Shown in pieces: positions 34,359 through 47,559 of a stretch of 64,000 bases of DNA; position 1 is the first letter of the stretch, and each line of letters opens with the position of its first letter. The stretch lies in contig PIUA01000019.1 of assembly GCA_017577405.1 (NCBI GenBank), positions 62,001-126,000 of the forward strand. The letters are read 5' to 3'. The position numbers and the translations under genes were made by a program. This DNA comes from Bacillota bacterium. GTDB lineage: Bacteria > Bacillota > Limnochordia > Limnochordales > Limnochordaceae. The notes beneath the pieces are model-generated. The model searched no databases. It saw only the letters and a program-made list of their open reading frames with translations, and was not told the origin of the DNA.

Positions 34359-35054
34359 TCACCCCGGCTGGCCGTTGACCGCCCGGAGGACCGCCTGCAG
34401 CACCTGCTCCTCGGGGACAGCCCCCTCAATCGCCTCGGTCTCGTTGATGACCGTCTTGGGCACCCCGTAGACCCCGTACCGCCGGGCGAGCTCGGGAAAC
34501 TCCGTCGCCTCGACCATATCCGCCCGGACCTGGTCACTCTCCAAAGCGAACTGGTGGGCCAGGCGGACCGCCTGGGGACAGTAGGGACAGGTGGGGGTGA
34601 CGAAGACCTGGATGTGGACCGGTTGGGTCAGCTCCTGAAGGGCTGCCCGGGTCTCGTTGCTCAGGTGGGTCTTCCCCCGGGAGAGGTCGACCACATCCTC
34701 CATGAACGTACGAAACTCGTACCCCAACGGCGCGCCGAAGAACCAGACACCCCGGTCCCGCCCGTCCTCGCCTGTGAGGGCGATGGCCGGAAGCCGATCC
34801 TGGGAGACCTGCCACTGGTCGAAGAGGTGGTCGTCCTCACCCACGTAGGCGATGGTCACCTCGATCAGGTCCGAGAGCTGGCCCACCTCGGCCATCAACT
34901 CCAGGGTTTGCTCGGCCAGAGGATTCCGCCGCACGCCCGGGATCTCCAACCGGGTGGGCTTGCGGCCGAAGGCAAAGATCTTCACCGGCCGCTCCAGCCG
35001 CTCCTTGAAAAAGCTCTCCACGTACCGGCGCTCCCGCTCCTGCAGAATGGCCAC
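34359..35054 (-). CDS. Tandem thioredoxin-fold protein (glutaredoxin-like / protein disulfide oxidoreductase family)
   Basis: C-terminal HIQVFVTPTCPYCPQAVRLAHQFA...YGVYGVPKTVINETEAIEGAVPEEQVLQAVL; N-terminal half Trx-like without CxxC. Confidence 0.82.
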   Translation of the reverse strand: MAILQERERRYVESFFKERLERPVKIFAFGRKPTRLEIPGVRRNPLAEQTLELMAEVGQLSDLIEVTIAYVGEDDHLFDQWQVSQDRLPAIALTGEDGRDRGVWFFGAPLGYEFRTFMEDVVDLSRGKTHLSNETRAALQELTQPVHIQVFVTPTCPYCPQAVRLAHQFALESDQVRADMVEATEFPELARRYGVYGVPKTVINETEAIEGAVPEEQVLQAVLRAVNGQPG

Positions 35055-38724: not shown

Positions 38725-39441
38725 TCAGGACCCGGCGTCAGACGGCTCGTCCCGAGGGTCCTCCTCCACCTGGAAGAGAAGCTCCGCGGGGCCGAAGAGG
38801 GTGATCTCCCCCGTCTCCAGCACAACGGTCACCCGCTCGGCCGACTCCACGGCCCCGGTGCTCCACTCGCCCGACACCCGGCCCGCAAGTTCCGCCTGGC
38901 CCAGGCGGTCCCAGAACCGGGCCTGATCGGCGGCGAACCACCGGTCCTCCTCCTCCAGCCGGACGGCCCCTTCGGCCCAGGCCTCGCCCTGGAGGGCCTG
39001 GTAGGTGAGCCGGGCGGCGGTCAGGCGGCTGACCCGTCCATCCTCCCCGGCCCGCTCCAGGCGGACGCGACCCTCGAGATGGTACCGCTCCGGGCCCAGA
39101 TCGGCCTCGAGCCGGTCGGCCTCGACGGTGAGGCCCGGCTCCTCCAGGCGGACCTGGCCGGCCAGGATCAGGCGGTTCGCCTCGGGATCGTACTCGGCCC
39201 GCCGGGCCTGCAAGGTCCGCTGGCCGTACTCAGCCACCACCTGCCCTGTGGGGGGGGCCAGCACGTACCGGCCCGTCCCCGCCTCCACATAGCCGGTGGT
39301 CGCCTGCCGGTCGGCCTCCACCACCCGAAGGCGGAGCGCCTCCGCGTGCCCCGCGGGCGCCAGGACCCCGGCCGCGAGGACCGCCACCAGCAGCCATCCC
39401 GTCATCCGCACCCCGCGGGCGGTCATGACCCGTCCGTCCAT
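38725..39441 (-). CDS. LptA/OstA-like periplasmic protein
   Basis: Signal peptide plus repeating OstA beta strands (ARRAEYDPEANRLILAGQVRLEEPGLTVEADRLEADLGPERYHLEGRVRLER). Confidence 0.72.
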   Translation of the reverse strand: MDGRVMTARGVRMTGWLLVAVLAAGVLAPAGHAEALRLRVVEADRQATTGYVEAGTGRYVLAPPTGQVVAEYGQRTLQARRAEYDPEANRLILAGQVRLEEPGLTVEADRLEADLGPERYHLEGRVRLERAGEDGRVSRLTAARLTYQALQGEAWAEGAVRLEEEDRWFAADQARFWDRLGQAELAGRVSGEWSTGAVESAERVTVVLETGEITLFGPAELLFQVEEDPRDEPSDAGS

Positions 39442-39489
39442 GATTCTCCTGCCTCCTTTCGGCCCCCGCCCCACGCGGCTTGGCACCGG

Positions 39490-40149
39490 TCAACGGTCGG
39501 GCAGGGTGGGGAGCACCCAGTCGATGGGGCCCACCAGCTCCAGTCGCTCCTCCCCGTCGAACCAGCGGGCCCCATCGGCCGTCAGACGCTGGCCGTCGGG
39601 CCGCACCACCTCCACCCCCCCTGCCAGGTGGAGGATGCCCGTGGCCGCGTCGGCCGTCAGCCGCCCCGCGGTGAGCCGGTCGCCCGCCAGGGTGGCCCGC
39701 ACTTGGCTGGCCGCCTCCAGCCGGCCCGCCTCCCCGTGCCAGACCACCGCCTCCGTCTCCAGGCGGCCCCCTGATGTCAGCTCCATCTCCACCTGCCCCT
39801 CCAGCTCCAGGCCGTTGGTGGCCGGGATCCACCGGCCCCGGGCCGCCCGCAGGGTGAGCCACGGGTCCTCATCCCGGTAGAAGAGGCCCCGTTCGACCCC
39901 TTCCAGCGCGACGGCCCCCTCCCCCTCGGCCAGGGCGCCCACCTCCAGGGTCCATTGGAGCTCGCCCTCGAGGAAGCCGTCGACGGTCACCCCTTCCAGA
40001 CGGGGCGGGGCGGGCCCTTCGTCGGGCGGCGGCGGTGGCCCGGGCCGGCCCCCGCCGCCCAGCCACGCCGCCAGCGCCACCCCCAGGCCCAAAACCAGCA
40101 GGATGGGGAGCCATGGAAGGGGTCGGCCGCGGGCTGGTCCCAGGGCCAT
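39490..40149 (-). CDS. LptC-like single-TM protein
   Basis: N-terminal TM LPILLVLGLGVALAAWLGG; LptC-like VDGFLEGELQWTLEVGAL...GLFYRDEDPWLTLRAARGRWIPATNGLELEGQVEMELTSGG; ATGA overlap with upstream gene. Confidence 0.68.
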   Translation of the reverse strand: MALGPARGRPLPWLPILLVLGLGVALAAWLGGGGRPGPPPPPDEGPAPPRLEGVTVDGFLEGELQWTLEVGALAEGEGAVALEGVERGLFYRDEDPWLTLRAARGRWIPATNGLELEGQVEMELTSGGRLETEAVVWHGEAGRLEAASQVRATLAGDRLTAGRLTADAATGILHLAGGVEVVRPDGQRLTADGARWFDGEERLELVGPIDWVLPTLPDR

Positions 40150-42401
40150 CAGGAGGTCACCTCCTGGACGACGGCCCGCATGTTTGGAAGTTGGAAGAGG
40201 CTGGACGCCTCCGCCTCCCACCCCAGCTGGAGGGGGGTGGTGGGGAAGGCATTGAGGTGGTACTCGAGCCAGATGGCCTTGTTCACCACATCGAAGCGGA
40301 GGCCCACCGTCCGGCAGTCGGAGGTGTAGGTGAGGCTCAGCTGGCCCAGGAGGGCGCCCAAGGTGGTCTCGTCCTCGTCCAGGGCATAGGCCACCTCGCC
40401 CTGGACCGCCCAGCGCTCCCCCAAGGGGAGCGCGAGGATGGCGTCGTACCGGGTCCAGGTCTGGTCCGGCACGTCGTAATGGCCGGCCGCCCCCACCGTC
40501 ACCTTCTCGCCCAGGCTCACCTGGACCAAGCCGGCCAGATCGGTCAGCTCGTCCTCAAGGAGATCATACCTCGCAAAGGTTCCCGCCCAGAGGGCGCCCC
40601 TTCGGGCCTCCAGCAGAAGTTCCAGCCGCTCCCGCGCCTTCCACGCTTCTGTGTGGGCGTGAAAGGGGGTCTCGCCCCAGGCGTCCTGGATGGTGTAGCG
40701 CAGCTCACCCGTGAAGGCGGCGCTGGGGCGGTACTGGAGGGTCCAGGTGCTGCCCGCGTAGAGGAGTTCCTCCGCCGTCTCGTACCACCACTGGCCCGCC
40801 CAGGTGCTCAGCCCCAGGCTCCAGGGCCCGGCCAGCGGCAAGCGGGTCCCGCTGCTCCGGAACCCCAGGTGGGCCCCTTCCAGCCAGCCCGTGGGGCCGT
40901 CAGCCCGTTCTTCCTGGTAGCGGCCCGCCTGGGTGAAGAGCCGGAGCCGGGTCCCTTGAAGGGGCTGGGGCCAGAGGCGGGCGGGCAGGGTGTACCCCAG
41001 CTCCCCTTCGGGGGCCCGTCCAAAGCGGGTCCAGGCGTTGGTGCCGGGGATCTTGTACTGGAGGATCTGGCTGTGGAGCGTCCACCCGCCCCGGAGTGCA
41101 GCATCCCACGAGCCCCAGCGGCCCTCCACCGCGCCCTGGTAGCCCAGGTACTGGTGGAGGTCGGCGCCCTTCTGCCACCGCCGGCCCTGGGTGCCGGCGC
41201 TCAGCCGCAAGGGGCCCAGCTCCTGCCCCAGGCTCAGGTCGGCCCCTTCCTTGAGAAGGGCCTCTCCTTCCTCCCGCCCCCGCTCCTGGTGACCCCGTAC
41301 GCCCACGGAGGTCCCATCCTGACGGTAGGTGAGGGCCAGGTCGTGCTCCAGGGCCCAGTCGGCCCGCTGGGAGGTGGAGGCGGGTCGCGTCTCCCAGTAG
41401 GTGCCGGCATAGACCGCCTCCACCGGCCAGTTGGCCGCGGCGGGCAAATCGATCCGGGTCCGCAAGCGGTACCGGGGCTCGGCCTCCTCCCGGCCCTTCA
41501 CCTCCGACGGCGGGTTCTGAAGCCAGTCGGCCCCCACCGTCCAGGAGGCGGGGCCCAGGGGGACGCGCTGGGTGACCCCCAAACCCCAGCCGGAGAACTG
41601 GTGGTAGCCCACGTGGAGGAGGCCCAGGCGATCGGCCCGGGTGTCGTAGGCGTAGGCCATCCGGATGTACCAGCCATCCTCCTCGGTCCAACCCACCTCC
41701 GGCGGCTGGAAGGGGGAGGTGCCCATCTCGTCGTCGGGGTCCAGGGAGATCGTCACCCGGGGCCAGTAGAGGAGCGGGATCGCCCCCTCCACGTAGACCA
41801 CGTGCCGGAGGACCATCACCTCGCCCGGCCAAATCTCGATCTCCCGGGCCCGGACGTGGTACTCCGGGTGGTCCAAGCCGCAGGTGGTGAGGGTGGCCCC
41901 ACCGATGTGGATGTGGGCGACGGTCCCCTCCACCCGGGGCGCCTGGAGGCGCAGGCTCCCGGAAGCGCCCGCGGGCTGGAGCTCCGCCTCCCCTTCGCCT
42001 AAGACGAAGGCGCCCGTGGCCAGGTTGTAGGTCAACCACGCCCCCTGCCAGTGCCCCGACTCCGTTTCCAGGCGGACCTGGCCGGTAAAGAGGGCCTCCT
42101 GGCGGGCGAGATCGGCTTCCAGGGCTTGGGCCTCGATGGTGATGGCGCCATGCCCGAAGTGCACGTCGGTGGCCACGAGCCACTGGGTGTGGGGGTCGTA
42201 GCTGGCCTCCCCGTTGACGCGGAGGCGGAGCGGGGTGCTTGCCGCCTCACCCGGCAGAACCAGCCCGGCCAGCAGCCCGAAGAGGAGGGCCAGGGCTGCC
42301 AGCCAGCGGGAGGCCTGAGACGCCCGGCCCCTCCGGCCAGGGGCTGGCGGCGAGGCTCTGGGCCCAACGGTTGCCCCCCCTCGGTGCTCCCCCTGCGCCA
42401 C
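40149..42401 (-). CDS. LptD/OstA-like outer-membrane beta-barrel protein
   Basis: Signal peptide, OstA N-domain (EADLARQEALFTGQVRLETESGHWQGAWLTYNL), long amphipathic beta-strand region, C-term QLSLTYTSDCRTVGLRFDVVNKAIWLEYHLNAF. Exact start uncertain. Confidence 0.75.
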   Translation of the reverse strand: MAQGEHRGGATVGPRASPPAPGRRGRASQASRWLAALALLFGLLAGLVLPGEAASTPLRLRVNGEASYDPHTQWLVATDVHFGHGAITIEAQALEADLARQEALFTGQVRLETESGHWQGAWLTYNLATGAFVLGEGEAELQPAGASGSLRLQAPRVEGTVAHIHIGGATLTTCGLDHPEYHVRAREIEIWPGEVMVLRHVVYVEGAIPLLYWPRVTISLDPDDEMGTSPFQPPEVGWTEEDGWYIRMAYAYDTRADRLGLLHVGYHQFSGWGLGVTQRVPLGPASWTVGADWLQNPPSEVKGREEAEPRYRLRTRIDLPAAANWPVEAVYAGTYWETRPASTSQRADWALEHDLALTYRQDGTSVGVRGHQERGREEGEALLKEGADLSLGQELGPLRLSAGTQGRRWQKGADLHQYLGYQGAVEGRWGSWDAALRGGWTLHSQILQYKIPGTNAWTRFGRAPEGELGYTLPARLWPQPLQGTRLRLFTQAGRYQEERADGPTGWLEGAHLGFRSSGTRLPLAGPWSLGLSTWAGQWWYETAEELLYAGSTWTLQYRPSAAFTGELRYTIQDAWGETPFHAHTEAWKARERLELLLEARRGALWAGTFARYDLLEDELTDLAGLVQVSLGEKVTVGAAGHYDVPDQTWTRYDAILALPLGERWAVQGEVAYALDEDETTLGALLGQLSLTYTSDCRTVGLRFDVVNKAIWLEYHLNAFPTTPLQLGWEAEASSLFQLPNMRAVVQEVTS

Positions 42402-42592
42402 AGCCGTCCCCCCTCGCCTCTCCACCGTGTCCCCCGGCCCCCGGGGCCGTGGTGACAGGCTTCGACGAGGGTGGAGGGGCCACCTCCAGAGAGGAGCGAC
42501 TCGCGAGATGGGAAGGCCTTCCTCTCCAGTTCCCAAGGGTTCAGGCCGAATGCAAATCTTGGGGAAGAGGGTTCAAAGACAGGGTGACGGCC

Positions 42593-43819
42593 ATGGGTGG
42601 TCTCTTCCAGGGAGATGGACTCCCCCGGGCGGGAGGCGCTGGCCGGGCCCGGCGGTGGCGCTCGTTCGCCAGCCGGGTTGCCGTGCTGACCGCCGTCTTG
42701 ATCGCGCTGGTCTTGGTGGTTCCCGCCCGTTCCGACGCCCCAGCGCCTGAACCCACCTCCGCACCGGAGGCGGCCGAGCCCTTCCACATGCCGCCCCCGC
42801 CTGACGGGGTCCGGGGGGTCTACGTCACCGGCGCCCTGGCCGCCAGCCCCCAGATGGACCGTCTCTTGGACCGGCTCGCGGGCACGGAGATCAACACCAT
42901 TGTCCTCGAGTTGAAAGACGAGCTGGGCCGGATCACCTTCCGCTCGTCCAACCCCCTGGCCCAGGCCATGGGCGCGGTGCGGGGCGAGTTGGGCGATCTG
43001 CGGGCGTTGGTGGACCGGCTCCACCGCCGGGGCTTCTACGTGGTGGGGCGGATGGTCGCCTTCCGGGATCACCGGCTGGCCCTCCAGCGGCCCGAGCTGG
43101 CCCTGAAGGATGTGCAGGGGAACATCTGGCGGGACCGCCAGGGGATCGCCTGGATCAATCCCGCCCAGGAAGAAGCGTGGGCCTACCTGATTGACCTGGC
43201 GGTGGAGGCCGCCCTGGCGGGCGTGGATGAGATCCAGTGGGACTACGTCCGCTTCCCCACCGACGGCCCCTTGGACCGGCTGGTCTATCCGGAAGGGATC
43301 CGGCGGGAGGAGACCATCGCCGCCTTCCTGGCCGCCTCCCGGCAAGCCCTGCGCCCTGTCGGGGCCTACACCAGCGCCGACCTCTTCGGCTTCGCCGCCC
43401 TCACCCGAGGCGACATGGGGATCGGCCACCAGCTGGAGGTCCTGGCGGAGCAGGTGGACGTGGTCTCCCTCATGCTCTACCCCTCCCACTTCCCGCCGGG
43501 GGCCCTGGGGCTGGAAGACCCGGACCGGGCCCCCTACGAGACGGTCCTCCGCTCCCTCAAGGCGGCCGCGCAGCGGGTCGATCGGCGGAAGCTGCGGCCC
43601 TGGCTCCAGTCCTTCAGCCTCCGGAACCCCTATGGCCCCCAGGAAGTGTGGGCCCAGATTCTTGCCGCCCAAGAGGTGGAGGTGTCGGGGTGGCTCCTCT
43701 GGAACCCTTCGGGGAGGTACACCACCCCCCGGCAGCTGATGGGGTCCACCGCCCCGGTCCAGGAGGCGGCCCTCCAGCGGCCGGTTGAGAAAGAGGGAGT
43801 CGATGAGCCACGAGGTTAA
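42593..43819 (+). CDS. Putative glycoside hydrolase (DUF4015/GHL family)
   Basis: N-terminal TM; GVRGVYVTGALAASPQMDRLLDRLAGTEINTIVLELKDELG; VDEIQWDYVRFPTDGPLDRLVYP; VDVVSLMLYPSHF. Confidence 0.85.
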   Translation: MGGLFQGDGLPRAGGAGRARRWRSFASRVAVLTAVLIALVLVVPARSDAPAPEPTSAPEAAEPFHMPPPPDGVRGVYVTGALAASPQMDRLLDRLAGTEINTIVLELKDELGRITFRSSNPLAQAMGAVRGELGDLRALVDRLHRRGFYVVGRMVAFRDHRLALQRPELALKDVQGNIWRDRQGIAWINPAQEEAWAYLIDLAVEAALAGVDEIQWDYVRFPTDGPLDRLVYPEGIRREETIAAFLAASRQALRPVGAYTSADLFGFAALTRGDMGIGHQLEVLAEQVDVVSLMLYPSHFPPGALGLEDPDRAPYETVLRSLKAAAQRVDRRKLRPWLQSFSLRNPYGPQEVWAQILAAQEVEVSGWLLWNPSGRYTTPRQLMGSTAPVQEAALQRPVEKEGVDEPRG

Positions 43820-46278: not shown

Positions 46279-47559
46279 TTACCGGTAGGTGAAGGCCTCC
46301 GCCGCCCGGAAGAAATCGCCCGCGGTCGTCTCGAACCGTTCGGGCGCATCGGCGTACTGGAAGAGGTAGACGGTCGTCTCCTTAAGGGCCAGGAAGCTGC
46401 CTTCCCGCAACCGCCGCCCGTCCTCGTCCACGTAGCGGTACTCGAAGTAGAGGGCCGGCTCATCACCCAACCGGCTGGGGGTCGGCCCCTGGACGAGTTC
46501 GAAGCCGGGGACCACGTCCTGGTAGCTGGCCAAGAGCTCCCCGGCCAGCCCCTCCAGGTCGCGCCCGCCGGCAGGTTGGGGGGTGACATGGATGAAGAAG
46601 ATCCGCCCGTCCCGGGAGCGGAGGACGGTGGTGCTGGCAGAGGTGGTGCTCCGGCCGGCCCGCCAGTCATCGGGCAGGGGGAAGGTGTAGCGGCCCAGGG
46701 GATCGAGATACCGGGCGGCCGCCTCGTCCACCCCGATCCGGGGCGGGGCGGCCACCTGGGCCCGGTTCCGCTGGTAGACAGCCTGGAGTTGGGGGAGCCG
46801 CTCCCGGGTCACCTCAATGCGGCGCTCGGTGAGGGGGTGGGTCCGGAGCACCTCGGCCACCTGGGGCCCCTGGTGGCGCCGCTCTTCCTCGAGGAGCCGT
46901 TCCAGGAAACGAGGCAGGCCCTCGGGGTCGAAGCCAGCCTGGGCGGCGAACTCCTGCCCCACCCGGTCCGCCTCGTACTCGTCGTCCCGAGACCACCCTT
47001 TGTCGATCAGGTCCGCCGCCAGGTTGACCAGCTGCTGGACCACCTGGGTCTCCGTCGCCTCCCGGAAGAAGACCCCGATGAAGACCGCAATCCCCAGCTG
47101 CCGCACAATCCGGTTCCGGTAGTGGTACCGGTCGATGTGGGCCACCTCGTGCCCCAGGACGTTGGCCAGCTGGTCTGGATCCCATCCGGTTAGGTCGAGG
47201 AGGCCCCGGGTGAGAAAGACAAACCCCCCGGGCAGCGCGAAGGCGTTGACCAAGTCGGTGTTCAAGACGGTGAGGGAGTACTCGATGGCCCCGGTCCGGC
47301 TGCTCTGGGCGGCCACCCGCTCAAAGATGGCGTTCAGCCAGGCCTGGTGCTCCTCGGGGAGGGGGGCGACGCCGCCGTACCGGGCAACCATCTCGGGGAA
47401 GGCCGCCTCCCCCGCGCTCCGCTCGATCCGATCCCACAACCCCGCCTGCGCCTGCACCCCGCCGGCCATGGCCAGGAAGAGCAGGAGCACCAGCGCGACC
47501 GCCCGGCCCCAAGGGGGCACCGGCTGGGAGTTGGGACGCCTGGAGCGGTGATGGTCCAT
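46279..47559 (-). CDS. M48-family zinc metalloprotease
   Basis: Signal peptide; [15 protein letters not shown] (HExxH); [23 protein letters not shown]. Confidence 0.92.

Follow-up and report, generated by a model that had tools for sequence, protein, structure and literature searches.

The window, a stretch of 64,000 nucleotides from a Limnochordia genome, carries a compact minus-strand unit (38725-42401) of three consecutive genes, lptD, lptC and lptA, which we interpret as encoding those parts of a working Lpt bridge that lie in the periplasm and the outer membrane of a diderm member of the Bacillota. The partners of this bridge are encoded on contig C14 of the same genome, and its cargo is likely a Kdo-free lipid A glycolipid. 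We assign this reading a probability of roughly 0.88. The three genes, which an earlier note on this DNA had described as LptD-, LptC- and LptA-like, are confirmed by their open reading frames and by profile searches, and for LptD and LptA also by predicted folds:

40149..42401, minus strand: lptD, 750 aa, outer-membrane barrel with an N-terminal OstA-type jellyroll
39490..40149, minus strand: lptC, 219 aa, periplasmic jellyroll protein with a single N-terminal hydrophobic (TM) segment
38725..39441, minus strand: lptA, 238 aa, secreted periplasmic bridge protein with a signal-like N-terminus

All three are real, intact genes under purifying selection, since GC at third codon positions is 0.90-0.91 (0.71/0.52/0.90 by codon position in lptD), since the differences between the window's genome (G000) and a sister genome of the same genus (G001) fall mostly at third positions, with protein identities of 55-61%, and since the gene order around lptDCA, from an M48 protease through a radical SAM gene, is kept in G001. 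The codon model favours GTG at 42401 as the start of lptD; a longer open reading frame, to 42536, begins at an upstream TTG. The lptD/lptC junction is a 1-base overlap, TGATG (sequence GTGACCTCCTGATGGCC), and not the ATGA overlap that had been claimed, a 4-base overlap being found in G001 but not in the window. Regarding the neighbours thought to be of Bacillota type, YpiB/UPF0302 and DUF3243 hold up, whereas the Spo0E-like reading frame has no Pfam match.

A functionless lptDCA, whether a decaying relic or recently acquired from a foreign source, is very unlikely. It is true that the locus is set apart from the outer-membrane cluster and that LptD shares only about 25% identity with its relatives beyond the genus, as such a history might produce. 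Nevertheless, the frames are intact, third-position substitutions dominate, the order is kept in the sister genome, and the GC content and codon use of lptDCA resemble the remainder of the window. Moreover, the window LptD groups in a tree with LptDs of diderm Bacillota, apart from the proteobacterial ones (SH-aLRT 100), the deep branching within the Bacillota group being without resolution. The tree placement and the substitution pattern led us to reject both the relic and the foreign-acquisition readings.

The window LptD taken alone matches no Pfam family and gives only a chance match to PDB sequences, so that an alignment of relatives was needed. A profile of 31 LptD relatives (A1) finds solved LptD in the PDB at E=3.1e-21, with both the N-domain and the C-terminal barrel aligned. 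PF03968 is matched by 21 of the 31 relatives and PF04453 by seven, the window member matching neither. Every computational test that the earlier note proposed gave a positive result, profile searches identifying all three proteins. The broad alignment A1 contained no stretch conserved enough for a collection scan, and the window LptD by itself recovered no named relative there, whereas a tighter alignment did. The AlphaFold (AF2) model of LptD (pLDDT 83) shows an N-terminal jellyroll fused to a barrel of about 26 strands, as had been predicted for 40149-42401 (a jellyroll and 20-26 strands). LptD is present in 60 of the 61 genomes searched, which comprise the window's own genome and relatives of the same class.

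Could this reading frame encode another large outer-membrane barrel, for instance a TonB receptor, that carries an OstA-like domain by chance? The missing Pfam match of the single protein and the presence of BtuB among the lower-ranking Foldseek matches would fit, but we consider this extremely improbable, given that the top 36 Foldseek matches are all LptD (best E=5e-24, TM 0.55, to a full-length LptD), that the relatives match PF03968, PF04453 or LptD_2, and that a cysteine pair and a Y-x-P motif are conserved among them. The window LptD contains just two cysteines, C174 and C696, both of them invariant in 31/31 relatives:

41880..41882, minus strand: codon of LptD Cys174, in the TTC motif of the N-domain, aligning in solved LptDs with the cysteine of the TxC motif (Cys173 in E. 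coli)
40314..40316, minus strand: codon of LptD Cys696, in the DCR motif of the C-terminal barrel, aligning with the Cys-Cys (724-725) pair of solved LptDs

In E. coli LptD, a structural disulfide forms between the N-domain TxC cysteine and the positions of the C-terminal CysCys pair; by alignment, the two window cysteines occupy positions able to join N-domain and barrel in the same way. A protein disulfide oxidoreductase (TIGR02187, over cut-off) is encoded at 34359-35054, near the LptD with its predicted disulfide.

LptC reaches TIGR04409 at E=1.2e-8, with a score of 34.7 just under the cut-off of 38, and PF06835 at E=0.002, and its profile (A3) finds solved LptC in the PDB at 8.5e-7. Sequence profiles and the N-terminal hydrophobic stretch together describe a single TM helix followed by a jellyroll homologous to LptC. 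LptA, a secreted OstA jellyroll homologous to solved LptA (profile A2, 8e-8), passes the PF03968 cut-off (9.2e-6), and its AF2 model (pLDDT 88) yields LptA, LptC and the LptD N-domain as Foldseek matches. With these tools we observe the identity of the proteins and their fold, the pair of cysteines and the presence of the partner genes.

The partner genes are found on contig C14, which carries BamA, a gene at the OmpH position, LpxD, LpxC, a GalU-like gene, LpxA, LpxI, LpxB, an LpxB-related protein, an MsbA-like ABC transporter (below the TIGR02203 cut-off), a TIGR03492 protein, an epimerase, LptB, one LptF/G and DUF3084, as well as proteins that we read as SLH-domain OmpM-like from position and sequence. 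LptB is identified by TIGR04406 (E=1.2e-105, 352 bits) and the permease by PF03739 (294 bits, just under the NCBIfam equivalog cut-off); separate LptF and LptG genes were not found in this genome. The earlier note was right that LptBFG and BamA lie outside the window, and the genome-wide search that it proposed recovers LptB, one LptF/G, BamA and LpxA/B/C/D/I, which is the opposite of the genome lacking LptBFG, BamA and Lpx genes that it had named as contrary evidence. An LptB ATPase and an LptF/G permease thus occur in the same genome, next to BamA and LpxA/C/D/B, the set of a diderm with an LPS outer membrane. This assembly is 86% complete, and the sister genome, a single contig of 3,817,036 bases that is 99% complete, gives the same picture. 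TamB was found neither in these two genomes nor in 37 further genomes of the 61; BamA is present in every one although TamB often goes undetected, and where TamB is found it usually lies beside BamA.

The class is said to have been described as diderm by Taib et al. in 2020. Limnochordia have indeed already been described as diderm, with an outer membrane seen by electron microscopy in cultivated members (PMC11456536), and this genome belongs to that class, so that its inclusion in the earlier list of diderm Bacillota was correct. The locus is therefore an ordinary, functional-looking Lpt module, expected in a class already known to be diderm. Of the two options previously left open, a diderm or a divergent relic, the first stands: judged from intact genes, purifying selection and membership in a full set, the genome appears to carry a working diderm set and not a relic.

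In our reading, LptB and the single LptF/G permease, encoded beside the lpx genes on C14, would extract the lipid from the inner membrane and hand it to LptC. Oligomers of LptA would form a slide to the LptD jellyroll, and the LptD barrel would open at its side to release the lipid into the outer leaflet, with a Cys174-Cys696 disulfide pinning jellyroll to barrel, as in E. coli. We infer this assembly, the direction of transport, the formation of the disulfide and the cargo from the components identified.

LpxK, WaaA and LpxL, which complete Kdo2-lipid A, were not found in this genome or in G001, and across the class over-cut-off matches are limited to one genome of 61 for WaaA, one for LpxK and two for LpxL. 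Control searches were positive in E. coli, Caulobacter and Bacteroides and negative in Synechococcus, as expected from the four-enzyme cyanobacterial pathway (PMC3087551). Since LpxK, WaaA, LpxL and LptE were not found, the cargo cannot be standard Kdo2-lipid A, and in this genome it is most likely a simplified, Kdo-free lipid A-type glycolipid, the product of LpxA, C, D, I and B. As far as absence from the sequences can indicate, the pathway of Limnochordia resembles the cyanobacterial one; a longer lipid A pathway is reported for Negativicutes and Halanaerobiales (PMC5007114). One relative, G026 (contigs C23 and C62; L076, L158, L159), is alone in having all three of LpxK, LpxL and WaaA, whether by acquisition, by retention from an ancestor or through contamination of the assembly, and G016 has an LpxL-type match.

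A different cargo has some arguments in its favour. LpxC is missing in 30 of the 61 genomes, two of which (G039 and G043) have LpxA over the cut-off, so that we treated their lack of LpxC as an assembly gap. The 28 others, from six families and most of them at least 90% complete, lack both LpxA and LpxC and nevertheless retain BamA (all 28), LptD (27), LptF/G (27) and an LpxB-like protein (27) scoring below true LpxB, one member of which passes the TIGR00215 cut-off. Retention of LptD, LptF/G and the LpxB-like protein under these conditions suggests another cargo, and Borrelia offers a published precedent for an Lpt-like system in the absence of LPS (PMC10353723). For the window's own genome, however, we consider it unlikely that the glycolipid transported is something other than lipid A, with the lpx genes serving another purpose or contributing only part of the cargo, given that LpxA, C, D, I and B lie in a single cluster with LptB and LptF/G both here and in the sister genome. 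The Kdo-free lipid A-type glycolipid thus remains our preferred cargo here.

The absence of Lpx across whole families is hard to explain by incomplete assemblies, and divergent enzymes below detection are possible. The LptDs of the Lpx-less families f8, f13, f14 and f15 are united in a single clade, from which f5 is separate. At L057, L064, L065, L066, L067 and L068, all from Lpx-less relatives, the LpxB-like glycosyltransferase adjoins LptB, often with FabZ, though LpxA, LpxC and LpxD are gone.

The usual gene order in other Limnochordia is BamA-OmpH-(LpxD)-(small gene)-LptFG-LptD-LptC-LptA-large gene of unknown family-ABC-(LpxC), and LptFG precedes LptD in Halanaerobiales records too. In G000 and G001, the small and the large gene are 116-126 bp apart with no gene between them, and lptDCA is elsewhere, so that in both genomes of the genus lptDCA has been relocated away from the outer-membrane cluster, with loss of the permease gene beside lptD. 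The large gene encodes a protein of 560-800 aa without a Pfam match (L050:15188-17212 and homologues), paired with an ABC ATPase and beside LptA in most relatives, which is possibly an unrecognised envelope component.

The LptF/G tree shows two fully supported clades, type 1 adjoining lptD and type 2 adjoining lptB. Compared with NCBIfam LptF and LptG, type 2 leans to LptG and type 1 falls in between, all scores being below the cut-offs. Two LptF/G genes occur in 27 genomes, all with lpx genes. G000 and G001 carry type 2 alone, four genomes of family f3 carry just the lptD- or BamA-linked LptF/G, and the Lpx-less genomes have a single LptF/G, linked to lptD where checked. The loss of type 1 in this genus perhaps coincided with the move of lptDCA, and retention of a single type 2 permease implies that the permease of this genus would act as a homodimer. 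Negativicutes and Halanaerobiales are likewise reported to have a single LptF/G homologue (PMC5007114).

Taken together, these patterns lead us to propose tentatively, at slightly less than even odds, that the Lpt bridge of Limnochordia is separable from lipid A: the 28 genomes without LpxA and LpxC, which nearly all keep LptFG-LptD-LptC-LptA, LptB, BamA and the LpxB-like glycosyltransferase, would export another glycolipid; type 1 would persist in Lpx-less lineages and type 2 only with lpx; and the window's genus would have kept type 2 alone, in a putative homodimer, while moving lptDCA. For the class-level separation of bridge and lipid A itself our confidence is moderate, since it rests on sequence absence. 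Within the class, genomes fall into a natural series, from lpx with two permeases, through lpx with one of either type, to one permease and no lpx, which makes an Lpt cargo without lipid A a directly testable question.

One neighbour of the Lpt unit may be connected with it:

46279..47520, minus strand: secreted, BepA-like M48 metalloprotease (PF01435 3.2e-31; NF052400 BepA 2e-24, far below cut-off)

In E. coli, BepA acts on LptD assembly. The M48 protease lies 4 kb from lptD both here and in G001, where its position is conserved, and it is possibly an LptD/OMP assembly protease. Divergently transcribed from lptD, a putative glycosyl hydrolase of family DUF4015 (42683-43819; PF13200, 3e-96) has its upstream region in common with lptD, again in both genomes of the genus.

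According to a 2022 survey, lptD never occurs in atypical diderms, among which it counted diderm Firmicutes, and the survey raised the question of how LPS reaches their outer membrane (PMC8871954). It had also been overlooked in a study of 2016 (PMC5007114), although proteomics then revealed the V. parvula LptD (PMC5491611). In nearly all Limnochordia genomes tested, we now show a bona fide LptD, encoded beside LptC and LptA. The earlier misses may be due to single sequences scoring below Pfam cut-offs.

The E. coli and Klebsiella systems (LptD-LptE, LptA and LptC; PDB 4q35, 5iv9, 2r1a, 3my2) share with the present one the jellyroll and barrel of about 26 strands, the cysteine pair from N-domain to barrel and the jellyroll proteins LptC and LptA. 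They differ in having two conserved cysteine pairs where we find one, whereas the genus of the window has one LptF/G permease and adjacent lptD-lptC-lptA genes. LptE (PF04390) was detected in the positive controls and in none of the 61 Limnochordia genomes; since it is also reported missing in Veillonella parvula (PMC10665443), we take LptE to mark the proteobacterial form and not the LptD family as a whole. V. parvula, of the Negativicutes, is likewise a diderm member of the Bacillota without LptE and with LptD, found by proteomics, encoded outside the diderm cluster (PMC5491611, PMC10665443). In that organism the lpx genes are still accompanied by LptA, LptC, LptB and one LptF/G (PMC5007114), whereas lptA and lptC moved with lptD here, and Negativicutes have LpxK, WaaA and kds genes (PMC5007114), whereas nearly all Limnochordia searched are without LpxK and WaaA. 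Borrelia burgdorferi, of an unrelated phylum, has an Lpt bridge but no lipid A pathway (PMC10353723), as in the 28 Limnochordia relatives and unlike the window's genome, which has lpx. A further likeness is to the four-enzyme pathway of Cyanobacteria and Dictyoglomi (PMC3087551), which likewise comprises LpxA, LpxC, LpxD and LpxB without LpxK, WaaA and LpxL, and which also shows the lpxD...lpxC-fabZ-lpxA-lpxB order found in several Limnochordia and the TIGR03492 LpxB-related protein in the cluster. To this arrangement, Limnochordia add LpxI and, in many lineages, two LptF/G paralogues.
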